DNA from: Desulfonatronovibrio sp.
Lineage (GTDB): Bacteria; Desulfobacterota; Desulfovibrionia; Desulfovibrionales; Desulfonatronovibrionaceae
Length of the DNA: 64,000 bases
NCBI GenBank assembly: GCA_003566455.1
Contig: PXDF01000063.1
Coordinates: forward strand, 1-64,000
Reading direction: 5' to 3'
The notes beneath the pieces are model-generated. The model made no database searches and had not been told where the DNA came from. It was given only the letters and a program-made list of their open reading frames with translations. Shown here piece by piece: positions 51,688-59,558 of this stretch (positions are counted from its first letter, which is position 1; each line of letters begins with the position of its first letter). A program made the position numbers and the translations under genes.

Positions 51688-53247
51688 CTACCTTCTCCAG
51701 CCCCAGTCAACCTCCATATCCTTTGGTGCTTCCATGCTTATATTCAGCCTGACCTCCTTATTGCCGTCCGGTTCCATGGTCAGGTTCCAGATAAAAAGGT
51801 TCTCGGTCTGTTCATCCGGGTCAGGGCTGAAATCGAATGAAGCCTTTATTCTTTCGTCACGCAATATTGGTTTTGGTTCTTCCAGCCTGATTTTCACCGG
51901 GTATAACTGGTTGTTGTCAAGGCTGATCACGAAATCCCATAAATAAGTCTGCCTGTTGGAAAATATTCCCCTGGCGCCGGATTTTTTTTCCCTGGTGATG
52001 AGTTCAGCTTTGACAAAGGGGTCCTGACCAAAAAACAGGGTTTCCTCAGTACCCGTAAGCCTGAGAAGTCTTTTGCCCACCATGGCCCCATCCAGCAGAA
52101 ATATGGCTTCGCCCCGGGGAAGATCTCTGGCTTCTTCAAATTCAATTTCAGCTCTGATGAAAGCCTTGTCGCCAATGCTTGGTCTGACCAGGTGCGTGAA
52201 ATCGGCCGGCCAGATTTCTTCTTGAATTTTAAATCTTGGTTTGTCTCCGGCAGCAAGGTTTCTTATCCCAAGTTTCCACTGAGAATAAGTTCCGGTTCTT
52301 TCCAGTTCAGGAGAATCTTGAAGGACTTCAGACCTGACCGCCATCATTTCCACGGCCTTGTGCGGCTCTGCCATGCGGCCCACTGGTGCTAACTCTCTGC
52401 GTGGGGAAACCACCCACTCCGGAATGGGACGCGGGATAAGTTCTCTCTGGGGCTCGAGGGTGGCAAGGCTCATTTCAACATCATCCCAGTCCGCGCCGCT
52501 GCTTTGCCAGACTTCTGCCTGCCAGGTGAAACTTATAAGGTTCTCCCCCGGCTGTGCTTCTATACGGTAAAAAGATCTCCAGCCGCAATTTTTTAAAATG
52601 TAGTTATAAGCAATCCTGATAAGTTCTTTATCCTCAGGAGAATCCACAAAGACCCTGACCTTCCAGACTCTGTTTTCAGGACCGGTAATCTGTTCTATTC
52701 TGCGCTCGAGATCATTAATGTCCTTGTTAACTTCTTCAAGTTTTAGACGGAGGCTTCCAATTTCTGTATATATTTTTTGCAGGCTGGAACTGATTGTCTG
52801 TGAGATTTCCAGCATAGCGGATATTTCACCTGCCTGAAATCCAGCCTGGTTTTCCCAGAATTCAGCACTTTTTTCAGCTGACTTAACGGATATTTCCAGG
52901 ATGGATTTTTCCTGAAGCAGGTCATCAAGTTTTTCCCTGAGAATGACTACCTGACTGATTTCCATGGGCTCAATTCTTTCCCAGGTGATAGCACTGACAG
53001 ATACAGGCTGTTTAAAGGAAATATTTATGGTTTCCGGATCAGCCTGGGCAGGAAGGATAAGTTCGGCAAGAAACCTGCTGTCCTGTCTGATAAGCGGGGA
53101 ATCGGTCTCTTCCCAGATCCTGGCGGAATCTGGAAACATGACAACTTGTCTTGGCGAGGCCCATGAATGGGCCAAGGTGAGAACAGCTAATAAAATCAGC
53201 CAGAAAGATATAACCATGGATTTAAAGGCAAATTTTCTGAAGATCAT
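51688..53247 (-). CDS. DUF4139-domain exported protein
   Basis: Signal peptide MIFRKFAFKSMVISFWLILLAVLTLAHSWA; coiled coil; C-terminal VKIRLEEPKPILRDERIKASFDFSPDPDEQTENLFIWNLTMEPDGNKEVRLNISMEAPKDMEVDWG. Confidence 0.75.
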   Translation of the reverse strand: MIFRKFAFKSMVISFWLILLAVLTLAHSWASPRQVVMFPDSARIWEETDSPLIRQDSRFLAELILPAQADPETINISFKQPVSVSAITWERIEPMEISQVVILREKLDDLLQEKSILEISVKSAEKSAEFWENQAGFQAGEISAMLEISQTISSSLQKIYTEIGSLRLKLEEVNKDINDLERRIEQITGPENRVWKVRVFVDSPEDKELIRIAYNYILKNCGWRSFYRIEAQPGENLISFTWQAEVWQSSGADWDDVEMSLATLEPQRELIPRPIPEWVVSPRRELAPVGRMAEPHKAVEMMAVRSEVLQDSPELERTGTYSQWKLGIRNLAAGDKPRFKIQEEIWPADFTHLVRPSIGDKAFIRAEIEFEEARDLPRGEAIFLLDGAMVGKRLLRLTGTEETLFFGQDPFVKAELITREKKSGARGIFSNRQTYLWDFVISLDNNQLYPVKIRLEEPKPILRDERIKASFDFSPDPDEQTENLFIWNLTMEPDGNKEVRLNISMEAPKDMEVDWGWRR

Positions 53248-53275
53248 ATTTTTTCCTGATGCTTTATTCGTGCAG

Positions 53276-55228
53276 TTAACGGCCGGGGATAATCCTTCTG
53301 AGGAGTCCTTCAACCTCGCTTTGGGGTTTGTCGTCATTCCTTTCTTTTTCTGTTGGAGGCACTATCCTGTCAATAAGTTTTTGCAGTGTTTCATCTCCTT
53401 TTTCCTGGATAAGGCTTTTAATGATGGTCTCACTGTCAAGGCTGAAGCTCAGATCGTCAAAAGGACCTCTCACTCGAAGGGGTATGGTTACTTCCCTCAG
53501 ATTGTATCTGGAAACAAGCTCCTCTCTGAGGGCGCCATCAACCTTGACCTGCGATCTGGAATCAAGATGGGAACGAGGCAGATCCGCGGTCATTTCACCA
53601 GTTAGGGCCAAAGCTGGTGAGTTCATGGTCAGATCTCTTGAAACCGCGATCCCGTTGTTGATATCAAAGTTTGCCCCGATTCGTGTAAAACTGGTTTGCC
53701 CGCTGTTGTCAGTTGCAGCCCCAATCTGACCGGCGGCCAGGGCAAAGACATCTCTGATCTTTTTTTCAAGATCAACTTCCTTAATGACCCCATCTGTCAA
53801 AACAAGCTCAGCCTTGCCTGACATGTTCCTGACGAATTCTTCATTGCCCTGCCCCCAGGTTTTTATATCGCTTTGAATTTCGGCGGTGCCTGTGATTATA
53901 TCTTTCTGGGCCAGGTCTTGAATAAAGGGTCCAATCTGGAGATTTTCCAGACTTTGAGCAGCCGTGATATGCAACGCTCCCCTGATGTCTTCCAGGGTAA
54001 TGTCTGATTCCTGGGTTCCTCCGTAAAGTTCCACTTTAAGGGGAGATATGGTCATTTTGCCCCTGCCTGACCTGATGCTTGCTGAAAAGCTGTCCATCAC
54101 AAGGTTGTCAGCCCTGATTTCCCTGAAGTCCAATTTGCCGTTGAGATTATAATCCGTGAGTAAGGATAAATTTATAGGTTCAATTGTTGATGGTTCTTCT
54201 GGTATGGATGTTTTTTCAGCATCAGGGACAGAGGCAGCCTTGGCAGGCTGGTTTGAATGATCGGTCATGATTTTATCCAGATCTATATTCTCTCCGCTTA
54301 TCTCAAAGGAAATATCAGGAGTTCCATCAAGGCTCAGAGCGGAAATTTTCCCCCTGATCTGCGCCTCATAGATATTAATATCCAGGTTGTTCAAGTGAAT
54401 GGCATTATTGGACAGCTCATAAATCAGGTCACCTCTCAAGGTGTCGTTTTTGAGGGGTCTGGCAAGAATTTCTCCTTGAGCACTGATGTTCAGCAGAAAA
54501 TTGTCCAGTCTGACGAAATCATTATGTGAGTCAAAGGCGGCCAGGGCGCTTAACTTGAGATCGCTCTGAATATCAGGATTCCAACTCTGGATTTTCATGT
54601 CTGCAAAAATATCAAAAGGGACATCCATGCTTATCCTTCCGGTCTCGAGGTTGAAGTCCCGGATTGACATTGACTGATTGGTTTGCCTGTCCTCATAGGA
54701 AACAGCCGCATTGGCCACCTGGAGGCCTTTAATGTTAAAGTCCGAGATGGTCCTGGACGGGTCTGCTGCTGGAATTTCTCTTTCCGCCAGAGGTTCGGAG
54801 GGCTTCAATTCGGGTTCTGCAACAGATTCTTCAGGGGAGATCCAGTTCTGGCGTCCATGTTCGTCTTTTATAAGGACCAGTTTAAAACGGTTAAGTATTA
54901 TTCTGTTAGCCTCGACCCGACGTGAAAAAAGGGGCCAGAATTTGATTCTGACCTGGAGTTCATCCAAAGAAGCCAAAGGGATATCGCCGAATTCAGGGGG
55001 GTTGGCCACATGGGTCTTTCCAAGGCTCAAGCCGATCCATGGTATCAGGGACAGCTCTATATCCCCCTCCATGACTACCTCATAGCCAGTGGCCTTTTTT
55101 ATTTCCTGGGATATTCTGTCCTTATGGTCGTTAACATCAATGATTATAGGAATAATCAGTCCGGCGATCACTATCAGGGCGATGAGAATTCCCATTATCA
55201 AAGCGGCGATTTTTAAGAGCCTGGCCAT
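53276..55228 (-). CDS. AsmA family protein
   Basis: MARLLKIAALIMGILIALIVIAGLIIPIIIDVNDHKDRISQEIKKATGYEVVMEGDIELSLIPWIGLSLGKTHVANPPEF. Confidence 0.92.
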   Translation of the reverse strand: MARLLKIAALIMGILIALIVIAGLIIPIIIDVNDHKDRISQEIKKATGYEVVMEGDIELSLIPWIGLSLGKTHVANPPEFGDIPLASLDELQVRIKFWPLFSRRVEANRIILNRFKLVLIKDEHGRQNWISPEESVAEPELKPSEPLAEREIPAADPSRTISDFNIKGLQVANAAVSYEDRQTNQSMSIRDFNLETGRISMDVPFDIFADMKIQSWNPDIQSDLKLSALAAFDSHNDFVRLDNFLLNISAQGEILARPLKNDTLRGDLIYELSNNAIHLNNLDINIYEAQIRGKISALSLDGTPDISFEISGENIDLDKIMTDHSNQPAKAASVPDAEKTSIPEEPSTIEPINLSLLTDYNLNGKLDFREIRADNLVMDSFSASIRSGRGKMTISPLKVELYGGTQESDITLEDIRGALHITAAQSLENLQIGPFIQDLAQKDIITGTAEIQSDIKTWGQGNEEFVRNMSGKAELVLTDGVIKEVDLEKKIRDVFALAAGQIGAATDNSGQTSFTRIGANFDINNGIAVSRDLTMNSPALALTGEMTADLPRSHLDSRSQVKVDGALREELVSRYNLREVTIPLRVRGPFDDLSFSLDSETIIKSLIQEKGDETLQKLIDRIVPPTEKERNDDKPQSEVEGLLRRIIPGR

Positions 55229-55396
55229 CTTGTTCTCCTGCATAAGAATTTGTTTCATTGCATCTTTAATAATTTCCAATAAAGATTTGGGCAATATTTA
55301 TTGTCATTTTTCGGTGAAGTCCGGCAGTTTTTGAACCTTGAAAGCTTGTTTGTTGCAGACTATTCAGTTATGGGCGTTGAAAAATTTATGGTTTTG

Positions 55397-58300
55397 CTAA
55401 GCAAGGGATCTGTCCAGATAGTCATCCCCGGGTTTGTAAAAATCATCCATAAAGCTTTTTTTGTTTTCTTCGTCTCTTAAAGGCGGATACCTGTCAGCCA
55501 TGTATTCCAGTTCTTCCAGATAAGTTTGCCAGTGGTCAAGGTAAAAAGAAAGGGCCCTGGAAAAGTTTTTGCCCACCAGTCCGTCCAGCAAAAGCCTGCT
55601 GATTTGTTTTTCCCTGAACAATACATGCTGGGAGAGGAGGATAACCTTCCGCTCATCTCTGGACATTCTTTTAAAGAGCTGTTTAAGAACCCCTCTAGCC
55701 CTGGGCTGGTACATCCAGAAATATTGCAGATCAAGGGCGTTGACGATGATAATATTGACCATATCTCTTTTTTCAAACTCAATGGTCTGCATGAGTTCCT
55801 TGGTGGACTCCAGAAGGCTCAGGACGTCGTCCAGGGGAAAGAGTATCTCCAGCTGGGCGTAAGTGTTGAAAAGATGGTTGAATTTGCTCTTGTAATCCAG
55901 GATTCTGCGCTTGATGAACTGAGCTCTGTCAGCAAGGCCTTCAATGACTCCGGCCACAGTGTCTGATGCAAGTTTGGATATTATGGCGGCCCATTGCTGC
56001 AGGATCATGTCTATGGCCAAGACGCCCATAAGGGCCAGAGTACCTCCGGCCAGCCAGTTGAACAACAGGGCCAGGGGGATGGCTATTATACTTCTGAAAA
56101 AGTTGCCGATTACGGCTGCTCTGGGGAGACCTCTGAGCAGATTGTGAGAGGAAAGATAAATCCCGTTAACCAATGATATGACGGAATACACCATTACTGG
56201 ATTGGTATAGACCGTCATATCAAGAGTTCTGTCCAGGAGCATGGTTTTCACCAGGTAATCAAGAAGCGGGACTGAAAAGCCTGTATACATGAGGGAGTCG
56301 GCAAAACGGTCCCATCTGACATAACTGTTCCATCTGACCATTGATGGCCGGTTGATTCCTCCGCAACCAAGAACAGACTGAATAATATTTCTGATTCCAG
56401 TAATGGCAAACCAGATTACAGCCCCGAAATATGCTAAGAGCCACCATTCCTGGTTAAGAAAAAAAGTCAGAAAAGCCGGAATGAACCCCAGGGATATTTT
56501 ACCGGCGATTTTTATCTTGGTATTTAGATATCTCGTTGCGATTCTTCGGGTGACACCGGGAATATTTCTCGGAATTTCAGGACCACGACTCACCTGGTTT
56601 TTGCGAATGCCACCCATTGTGTAAATATTGCTCTTATCCCCTGATTCGGGAAAATAATCTTTTATGTCCCAGTCGGTTTTCCTGCGGTAACCCAGTCTGC
56701 CGACCCCTGGGATATTTTTCAAAAATTCAGATGCCGCGCCGGCAAGTCCTTCCCTGCGGGAAACAGGAATCAGGGTGTGCCTGGCATAAGACTTCACTCC
56801 AACGTTGACGTTTTTATAAGGTGATTCCGGAAGCCGGCACAGCTCTCTTCTGGCTCTTTTTGGAAGTGACTCAATCAATACCAGCCCCATTCCATAAAGG
56901 CGCTCTGAGCGGCCTGTGGAGTCTGATCCAATGCAGGAGCGCAAGGGGTTATCCTTGTAAAAGGATTGAAATCTGGGAATATCACAGAGGATTTCTATGA
57001 GCTTGCCTTTTCTTTCCTGGTCAAAGCCCTCTCTTTTGCTGGCCTCTTCAAGCATCCGGCTGAGATATCTTTTGAGATTTATGACATTGCCCGAGTTAAT
57101 GGAAGTCTGAAGATTTATGATCAGTTCCTTGTCAAATTCTCGACCAAGGATCTGATTTTTGAGATTGAGTATCTCCAGATGAGTGATCAGTCCCTGGCAG
57201 TCATAGAGGAGTTCGATAACGTCCTCCACCTTGAGGTCGCAAATATTCAGGGTGACGTTTGAGTTGGAGTGCAGGATTTTAATCCTGGAAACAAGCTCGT
57301 AAGGGCTCAGGGTCAGGATTTCAGGCAAATCCTGGTTTTCCAGGATGCTTGGTATATCTTTGTTTTTGGAAGGGCGTAAATAATCTTCAATAATATCATA
57401 AATGTCCGGAATGGAGAAGCTGGTGTCAAAGATGTTGTCAGCGCCAAAATTATCCGCCACAACAGGCTGAAGGTTGGTGTCAAGGACAACGCTCTGTCCC
57501 AGGTGTCTGGCAATGCATTCCTGGATGTATCTTCCCAGGTGGTGGATTGAAGCCTGTCCCGGTCCCACAAAGCTGATGAAATCAGACTCCCTTAGTCTGT
57601 CCATTTTTATGCCGAATCTTTTATTGACCGATTCCAGATGGTTATCATTGAATGATGCCAGAAGCTTTAGAGTATGAGACTGGGATAACCTTGAAACCTG
57701 CCTTCCTTTTTCCATGAGTTCAACGATTCTGGGAGCTTTGAGAAAATCAAGAAACCCAAGGGAGTCGCTGAATCCTCGCGGGACCCAGATCAGCCTCACT
57801 TCTTTTGTTCTGAAGTCTACAAAAAACTCGATTCCGATTTTGACCTGGATATCCATGATGGAAGCCGCCCGCAGCAGCTCTTCAGCAGCTTCTCTGGAGA
57901 CATGGTTATAATAAACCACGGTCAGGCTTCTGATGCCCTTGATCCAGGCATCCATGATAAGGTGGGTGGGTGATTTTCTGCCGGTGGTGTTTACGTCATG
58001 AACGTGTTCGTCAAAAGCGACCTGGTTCCACTCTTCAGGCATCTCCAGAAGCCGGTACTTTTTGAGCTGGGCTCTGACAAGCCTGGGTTTGCCGGATGAA
58101 ACTTCAGAAAAATCTCTGGCCAGTTCCAGTTGGAGCCTGCAGTCTCCATGACTCCTGACCAGGTTTTTCATGATTTCCACAAGAACCCTGGCGGTATTGA
58201 TGCGCAATGGACCTTCTGATGAGGACAAAACCTCATCACGCAAAGAGTTTAAAGCGCTGAGTCTGTCACTGGCCTGACCTGTTTTCAGGGAACCAAGGAG

Positions 58301-58549
58301 CTGAATCACTGAGTAGGCTATTCGGAGCGTTCTGGGCGCGGCGATTTCTTTGATCCCGTGAGGATGCAAAAATGGGGTCAGAAGTTTTTTCTGTTCTGAC
58401 AGGGAAGAATCTTTATAGACATCATTGACCAGCTTTAAAAGATCATAATCGCTTTTATCAAAATAAAGCCTGGATATATTTACCTGATCAGCGCAACTGA
58501 TATCCGGATGTTCTGATATGTCCGCGAGGTGAATATTTTTTCTGGCCAT
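55397..58549 (-). CDS. Large protein with degenerate PHP-like region and C-terminal multi-pass membrane region
   Basis: FDEHVHDVNTTGRKSPTHLIMDAWIKGIRSLTVVYYNHVSREAAEELLRAASIMDIQVKIGIEFFV (PHP-like order); several hydrophobic helices after about residue 700. Confidence 0.6.
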   Translation of the reverse strand: MARKNIHLADISEHPDISCADQVNISRLYFDKSDYDLLKLVNDVYKDSSLSEQKKLLTPFLHPHGIKEIAAPRTLRIAYSVIQLLGSLKTGQASDRLSALNSLRDEVLSSSEGPLRINTARVLVEIMKNLVRSHGDCRLQLELARDFSEVSSGKPRLVRAQLKKYRLLEMPEEWNQVAFDEHVHDVNTTGRKSPTHLIMDAWIKGIRSLTVVYYNHVSREAAEELLRAASIMDIQVKIGIEFFVDFRTKEVRLIWVPRGFSDSLGFLDFLKAPRIVELMEKGRQVSRLSQSHTLKLLASFNDNHLESVNKRFGIKMDRLRESDFISFVGPGQASIHHLGRYIQECIARHLGQSVVLDTNLQPVVADNFGADNIFDTSFSIPDIYDIIEDYLRPSKNKDIPSILENQDLPEILTLSPYELVSRIKILHSNSNVTLNICDLKVEDVIELLYDCQGLITHLEILNLKNQILGREFDKELIINLQTSINSGNVINLKRYLSRMLEEASKREGFDQERKGKLIEILCDIPRFQSFYKDNPLRSCIGSDSTGRSERLYGMGLVLIESLPKRARRELCRLPESPYKNVNVGVKSYARHTLIPVSRREGLAGAASEFLKNIPGVGRLGYRRKTDWDIKDYFPESGDKSNIYTMGGIRKNQVSRGPEIPRNIPGVTRRIATRYLNTKIKIAGKISLGFIPAFLTFFLNQEWWLLAYFGAVIWFAITGIRNIIQSVLGCGGINRPSMVRWNSYVRWDRFADSLMYTGFSVPLLDYLVKTMLLDRTLDMTVYTNPVMVYSVISLVNGIYLSSHNLLRGLPRAAVIGNFFRSIIAIPLALLFNWLAGGTLALMGVLAIDMILQQWAAIISKLASDTVAGVIEGLADRAQFIKRRILDYKSKFNHLFNTYAQLEILFPLDDVLSLLESTKELMQTIEFEKRDMVNIIIVNALDLQYFWMYQPRARGVLKQLFKRMSRDERKVILLSQHVLFREKQISRLLLDGLVGKNFSRALSFYLDHWQTYLEELEYMADRYPPLRDEENKKSFMDDFYKPGDDYLDRSLA

Positions 58550-58646
58550 AATTTTATGCTATAATATTATTTAAAAAAGAAGAAATTATGTATTTGTTAT
58601 AATTTAGGCAGGTTGGAAAAAAGTCAAGCTAGGGAAAACTGAGTGA

Positions 58647-59558
58647 TCAGACAGTTTGGGATTTTGTCTGGTTGCGGCCGGATTTTTTGGCCTCGTAAAG
58701 CATTTCATCAGCGCTTTTAATGAACTGGTCCATCGAAGAGGACTGATCTGGGACGGTCGTGGTAACGCCGATGCTTATGGTAATAAATGAACCAATGGGG
58801 GAGTATGCGTGTGGAATGGCCAGACGGGCTAAACTCTTATGAACTCGTTGAGCAATGAGTTCCGCGCCTTCCTGGTCAGTTTCCGGAAGAACGCAGGCAA
58901 ACTCTTCTCCTCCGAATCTCGCAGCCAGATCAGCTGGTCTGGTTAACGATTCCTCTATTGCAAGGGCAATTTTTTTCAGGCAGTCATCTCCGGCCGTGTG
59001 CCCGTAATTGTCATTATACAGCTTGAAATGGTCAATATCAAGCATAAGCAGGGATATGGGTTTTGTCTGCCGTTGGGCTCTCCTCCATTCCTGATGTAGA
59101 TATTCGTCAAGGCGTCTGCGATTGGGAATTCCGGTCAGGCCGTCCTTCATAGAGATTTCCTGGAGGTAATCCCTGTATCTTTTGAGTTCAAGGTGATTTC
59201 TGACCCTTGCTTTGACCACTGATGGTCTTATGGGTCTGGTGATATAATCCACGGCACCGAGTTCAAGGCCTTTTGCCTCGTCTTCTTCCATGTTCAGGTC
59301 TGTAATGAATATGATTGGAATGGCCCTGGTGACCGGGTTGTCTTTAAGTTTTTTACAGGCTTCAAATCCGTTCATTTCGGGCATGGTGATGTCCAGGATG
59401 ATCAGATCTGGCTGTTTTGCCTCGGCCATGGAAATTGCCTCATAACCATTGCGGCCGGAATAAATTTCACAATCATTGCCTAGGATTTGAGCCAGAACCT
59501 TAATGTTGGCCGGCATGTCATCCACGATCAGGATTTTTGGGTGCTGCTTTTTATTCAC
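58647..59558 (-). CDS. Response regulator diguanylate cyclase (REC-GGDEF)
   Basis: ILIVDDMPANIKVLAQIL, LIILDITMPEMNGFEACKKL; GGDEF domain with ARFGGEEFACVLPETD and RPAD I-site. Confidence 0.95.
   Translation of the reverse strand: MNKKQHPKILIVDDMPANIKVLAQILGNDCEIYSGRNGYEAISMAEAKQPDLIILDITMPEMNGFEACKKLKDNPVTRAIPIIFITDLNMEEDEAKGLELGAVDYITRPIRPSVVKARVRNHLELKRYRDYLQEISMKDGLTGIPNRRRLDEYLHQEWRRAQRQTKPISLLMLDIDHFKLYNDNYGHTAGDDCLKKIALAIEESLTRPADLAARFGGEEFACVLPETDQEGAELIAQRVHKSLARLAIPHAYSPIGSFITISIGVTTTVPDQSSSMDQFIKSADEMLYEAKKSGRNQTKSQTV

Follow-up and report, generated by a model that had tools for sequence, protein, structure and literature searches.

The subject of this analysis is a gene on the minus strand of the window, the 64,000-nucleotide stretch of DNA examined here, where an open reading frame running from an ATG start at 58549 to 55397 (55397..58549) encodes a predicted inner-membrane protein of 1050 amino acids that joins a variant PHP domain to a six-helix membrane domain. 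The frame is a real gene of a large, widely conserved and unnamed family. We infer a chemistry for the protein and, from gene context, a role in the glycerol-phosphate, phosphate and phospholipid economy of the cell; the reading tentatively preferred, as plausible rather than probable, is that of a membrane protein whose variant PHP domain binds a glycerol-phosphate or phospholipid ester and may also hydrolyse it.

That the frame did not arise by chance follows from its homologues, carried by 45 of 61 related genomes (76-37% identity, mostly full length), and from the 452 relatives found in one scan of GTDB contigs, mostly in Thermodesulfobacteriota. Relatives are also present in 33 of 297 genomes sampled phylum-wide and in 58 of 145 genomes from the order of genome G217. 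The labels of the 80 named loci are nearly all Desulfo-, Syntropho- or Deltaproteobacteria, the closest named relatives of the window protein being those of Desulfonatronovibrio, and a search for plasmid or phage relatives of the family found none. Some genomes carry two to three paralogues, and in one genome two copies of the family gene apparently converge (L072:54-3389 on the plus strand and L072:3416-6790 on the minus strand). One metagenome-assembled genome labelled Alphaproteobacteria (L053) holds a member that nests among Desulfovibrionales on the tree, which may reflect a mislabelled bin or a transfer. A supposed domain fusion at L262 was rejected, as its 2013-aa frame is merely an over-extended high-GC frame. 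Upstream of the window gene a possible sigma-70-like promoter (TTGACT-17-AATTAT, 58599..58627, minus strand) can be read, such sites in the region being no more frequent than chance.

The preliminary description had recognised no named family in this architecture, and rightly so: a Pfam search with the window protein gave no match, no Pfam or NCBIfam family reaches the 1050-aa protein, PDB sequence searches with the protein or family profiles as query returned nothing credible, and a literature search for a PHP domain combined with a membrane region yielded nothing relevant. The PADLOC defence models likewise had no match to the family protein, and a role in anti-phage defence was dropped on this account. 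As a separate observation, a Septu-type PtuA/PtuB pair (L170:4375-6220; PADLOC E 5e-118 and 6e-42) lies just upstream of one member of the deep subfamily.

Residues ~166-562 form a PHP domain, and the fold is secure. An AlphaFold2 model of the whole protein, built from a 67-sequence alignment (mean pLDDT 80, pTM 0.81), was compared by Foldseek with the PDB, and the best five matches are all PHP proteins (3o0f, 3e0f, 9etk, 2yb1 and 7ug9), led by 3o0f with an E-value of 5.6e-6 and a target TM of 0.68. When the family profile was aligned by hhalign with a profile of 18 canonical PHP proteins encoded in related genomes, the first part of the domain matched at E = 2e-5 with its motifs in register. 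Four NCBIfam PHP models match 29, 15, 6 and 3 of 65 members (best 4.7e-6), all below their curated cut-offs, the 29 belonging to NF041577; Pfam PHP reached 0.15 in a single one of the 65. In the window protein the NCBIfam match, a sub-threshold one to a PHP nucleoside bisphosphatase, covers residues 178-254, and the score of 12-14 bits against NF041577, whose curated cut-off is 400 bits, places the protein outside the nucleoside bisphosphatases proper. A PHP fold with altered metal ligands is what had been proposed from the letters alone, and the structural and profile comparisons both uphold it; the motifs quoted in its favour are all present (FDEHVHD at 179-185, GIRSLTVVYYNHVSREAAEELLRAA at 205-229, the IGIEF region at 238-242 and a hydrophobic stretch at ~688-720).

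The domain had been placed at residues ~160-420, but it extends to ~562 and is interrupted by a sizeable insert of helices and by a linker that the model predicts poorly. Foldseek aligned 416 columns with a PHP protein of 287 residues, which suggests that the domain takes in the strand and motif found at residues 537-558. The layout of the protein, given here in minus-strand coordinates, thus begins with an all-helical N-terminal domain (residues 20-165, 58055..58492), defined by the secondary structure of the model and by conservation, with conserved HPxGIKE and NTARVL motifs and EMPEEWNQ just beyond. The first part of the PHP domain, including the helical insert, spans residues 166-350 (57500..58054; hhalign, NCBIfam PHP models and Foldseek), and a poorly conserved linker (residues 351-410, 57320..57499), in which model confidence is low at ~354-378, separates it from the second part (residues 411-562, 56864..57319), assigned by Foldseek and motif comparison and containing ExxN at 459-462, GSDSTG, and GMG at 553-555. 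A weakly conserved connector with strands (residues 563-660, 56570..56863; model and conservation) leads to the membrane domain.

The consensus of the nine PHP metal ligands is H,H,D/H,H,E,H,C/H,D/N,H (PMC3666897), and the family lacks the full set of a canonical metal-dependent PHP phosphoesterase. The window protein clearly keeps four of the nine, H182, H184, E241 and D543, which in the main family are retained at position 1 in 120 of 120 sequences, at position 2 in 116, at position 5 in 114 and at position 8 in 108, the register of D543 being set by the GSD motif and not by the local hhalign match. The first two lie in motif I (DxHxHDxxxxGRK, residues 180-192, 57974..58012) and E241 in GIE (residues 239-241, 57827..57835), both identified by hhalign and conservation; D543 lies in GSDSTG (residues 541-546, 56912..56929; conservation, register by motif), the counterpart of the canonical GSDxH. 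At position 3, the D of the canonical SDG, lysine is found in 107 of 120 sequences and threonine in the window protein, and the lysine of most relatives sits beside the invariant GRK motif. Tyrosines and an asparagine at 213-215 replace ligand 4 (approximate register), threonine replaces the histidine of position 9 in 110 of 120, and the conserved histidine of position 6 is absent from the main family. The deep subfamily, represented by five full-length members, keeps ligands 1, 2 and 5, with H at position 6 and A at position 8.

With several canonical ligands missing, the protein is unlikely to catalyse hydrolysis through the usual three-metal mechanism. The same region nevertheless contains residues identical in all 125 of 125 non-redundant members, deep subfamily included (D180, H182, D185, G190, R191, K192, D200, K204, E459, N462 and G553-M554-G555), and this identity argues for retained binding or catalysis and against decay. 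The domain is a variant PHP with a conserved pocket of its own, whose metals would number one or two at most and in which R191 and K192 may join in phosphate binding.

The membrane domain (residues 677-862, 55964..56521) was delimited from the models and from positive-inside charge counts, and its two ends are predicted to face inwards. The preliminary description had seen a fusion to 5-6 hydrophobic helices at ~680-900; the multi-pass fusion holds, and six helices are predicted within 677-862, a region included in a second model that covers residues 640-1050 (113 sequences; pLDDT 87, pTM 0.82). Lysine plus arginine averages 4.2, 3.8, 3.0 and 6.0 before TM1, in the TM2/3 and TM4/5 loops and after TM6, against 0.7, 0.6 and 0.0 in the remaining loops, a pattern that predicts a cytosolic location for the PHP domain and for the two ends. 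Of the membrane domain's invariant polar residues, nearly all are on the cytosolic side, and the conserved R720/N721, Q724, R734, R748, H802/N803, R806, S858/K859, D863, E870 and D874 would be able, at that face, to meet the PHP domain. Residues 863-1050 (55400..55963; models and conservation) comprise a conserved helix prolonging TM6 and then a helical C-terminal domain. Foldseek of residues 677-862 against the PDB gave no match (best E 0.48, TM 0.12), BFVD viral structures gave none either (best 0.19), and Pfam and NCBIfam held no credible match to the domain. A three-fold repeat of TM hairpins, an idea that arose from P691/P761/P825, from the RN/HN/SD pairs and from faint mitochondrial-carrier-like BFVD matches, was abandoned when hhalign gave no support above reversed controls.

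The survey of gene neighbours covered 126 non-redundant loci, across which no neighbour is universal; ~107 of them lack the glycerophosphate, phosphate and lipid genes described next. A glycerophosphodiester phosphodiesterase (GDPD) gene is immediately adjacent on the same strand at 6 of the 126. Two of these (L169, L172) belong to the deep subfamily and have it upstream, and the other four (L047, L061, L062, L080) belong to the main family and have it downstream. At 9 loci a PHO4-family transporter gene lies only a few genes away, in some cases together with a PhoU-like DUF47 gene. The rough expectation, calculated from rounded genome sizes and copy numbers for neighbour classes picked after the data were seen, is 0.24 for adjacent GDPD, against the six loci observed, and 0.16 (66 genomes) for PHO4 within 4 kb, which was found in 6 genomes of 4 genera. 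Genes of the Ugp glycerol-3-phosphate transporter (UgpE, UgpA and UgpB) lie beside L048 with scores over the curated cut-offs, L041 and L069 have homologues of them, and L050 has UgpA; these genes are convergent with the family gene, not co-directional. GlpA is found near L041, L061 and L080, exceeding its cut-off at L061, where it is downstream of the family gene, and a YegS-type lipid kinase gene follows L090. The minimum number of changes on the tree is 5 for PHO4, 3 for GDPD and 2 for Ugp, so the neighbours do not constitute one inherited block. The PHO4-family proteins at these loci score below the curated cut-offs of both PitA and CysP and might therefore carry sulfate, phosphate not being proved as their substrate. 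Other neighbours were recorded as well: a metallo-beta-lactamase-fold hydrolase is encoded directly upstream on the same strand at three Desulfamplus loci (L093, L100, L102), and a small cysteine-rich CxxC-type protein (YkgJ-like by eye) near members of both subfamilies (L089 from ~9036 onward; L171:5733-6416), its gene overlapping the start of the family gene at L171.

In the mechanism that we propose for a protein handling glycerol-phosphate or phospholipid esters, the PHP pocket would contain no more than one or two metals, with the basic residues of GRK standing in for those that were lost. The pocket could then hold the phosphate of a glycerophosphate, or of a phospholipid head group offered at the membrane surface, and the PHP and membrane domains might jointly cleave or transfer it, cleavage being the least certain step. 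In its strongest form, a membrane-embedded lipid phosphoesterase or head-group transferase of a new type, with a PHP domain rebuilt around basic residues and a previously unseen six-helix domain that together recycle phospholipid phosphate in sulfate reducers, the proposal is unlikely to be right in full.

The main competing view, doubtful but deserving serious consideration, holds that the six-helix domain does the work, as a channel or transporter whose substrate might be phosphate or glycerol-3-phosphate, while the PHP domain has lost catalysis and serves as a scaffold or as a sensor that gates the membrane part when a ligand binds in its pocket. About half of the nine ligands are lost and the third is lysine in most members, and the PHP domain of E. 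coli DNA polymerase III alpha illustrates that a domain with several lost ligands can be inactive (PMC3666897); transporters (Ugp, PHO4) are moreover among the neighbours. However, the invariance of DxHxHD, GRK and GMG across the deep split exceeds what a scaffold would need, and the membrane domain is unlike any known transporter fold.

Envelope biogenesis, in which the protein would act with AsmA-type lipid transport and DUF4139, is distinctly less likely. In the window the family gene is indeed followed on the same strand, as had been described, by an AsmA-family gene (53276..55294) and a DUF4139/MuiA-family gene (51688..53337), both assigned by family match, and AsmA-superfamily proteins are known to shift phospholipids between membranes (PMC8593681, PMC8912898). 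AsmA genes also lie near the family gene in L031, L032, L035, L036 and L037, and an AsmA-like gene is upstream of L047. With the exception of L047, however, these neighbours belong to one clade on the tree (Desulfonatronovibrio/Desulfonatronospira), AsmA being no neighbour elsewhere, and Desulfonatronovibrio, the genus of the window itself, is the only one where a third gene of DUF4139-like type was observed. The suggestion that this gene order ties the family in general to the envelope thus fails, as does the expected co-occurrence of the three genes across genomes, and a conserved PHP/AsmA/DUF4139 operon was given up as lineage-specific. On the other side of the window gene, a response regulator with a GGDEF domain is encoded directly upstream on the same strand (58647-59558), with a similar gene upstream in L037.

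A nuclease or nucleotide phosphatase anchored in the membrane is about as unlikely. The closest PHP models and structures, RNase AM and 3',5'-nucleoside bisphosphatase among them, act on nucleotides or RNA, but the family protein lacks the canonical ligands for such reactions, its recurrent neighbours do not include genes of nucleotide or RNA metabolism, and PADLOC had no match.

The significance of the family lies partly in its size, as it extends over hundreds of species and has no Pfam or NCBIfam model, and partly in a membrane portion that matches nothing in the PDB; to our knowledge no other PHP domain is found within a multi-pass membrane protein. Nor do we know of any protein that dismantles old phospholipids in a phosphate-starved sulfate reducer, and for this task, at scarce phosphate, the family offers a concrete candidate. 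In the sulfate reducer D. alaskensis G20 more than 90% of the phospholipids are replaced under phosphate limitation (PMC5193443), from which we infer a plausible job for the family protein.

Among known systems, the Cv1693-type 3',5'-nucleoside bisphosphate phosphatase (NF041577; PDB 2yb1) has in common with the family protein the PHP fold, the DxHxH, GxE and GSD motifs and the order of strands and helices, but it is a soluble enzyme of ~280 aa, whereas the family protein has several of the nine ligands replaced, contains a sizeable helical insert and is fused to a membrane domain. RNase AM (RNM; NF047791; PDB 9etk, 7ug9) shares the PHP fold and ranks high in both the Foldseek and the profile comparisons; unlike the family protein, it is a soluble 5'-3' exoribonuclease with no membrane fusion. 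Glycerophosphodiester phosphodiesterase (PF03009) and UgpBAE, for which no homology to the family protein was detected, are recurring neighbours that possibly act in the same pathway. The variant PHP of E. coli DNA polymerase III alpha (PMC3666897) likewise resides within a large protein and has lost several of the nine ligands in favour of basic substitutes, but the positions lost are different, and the family protein is membrane-bound and carries no polymerase.
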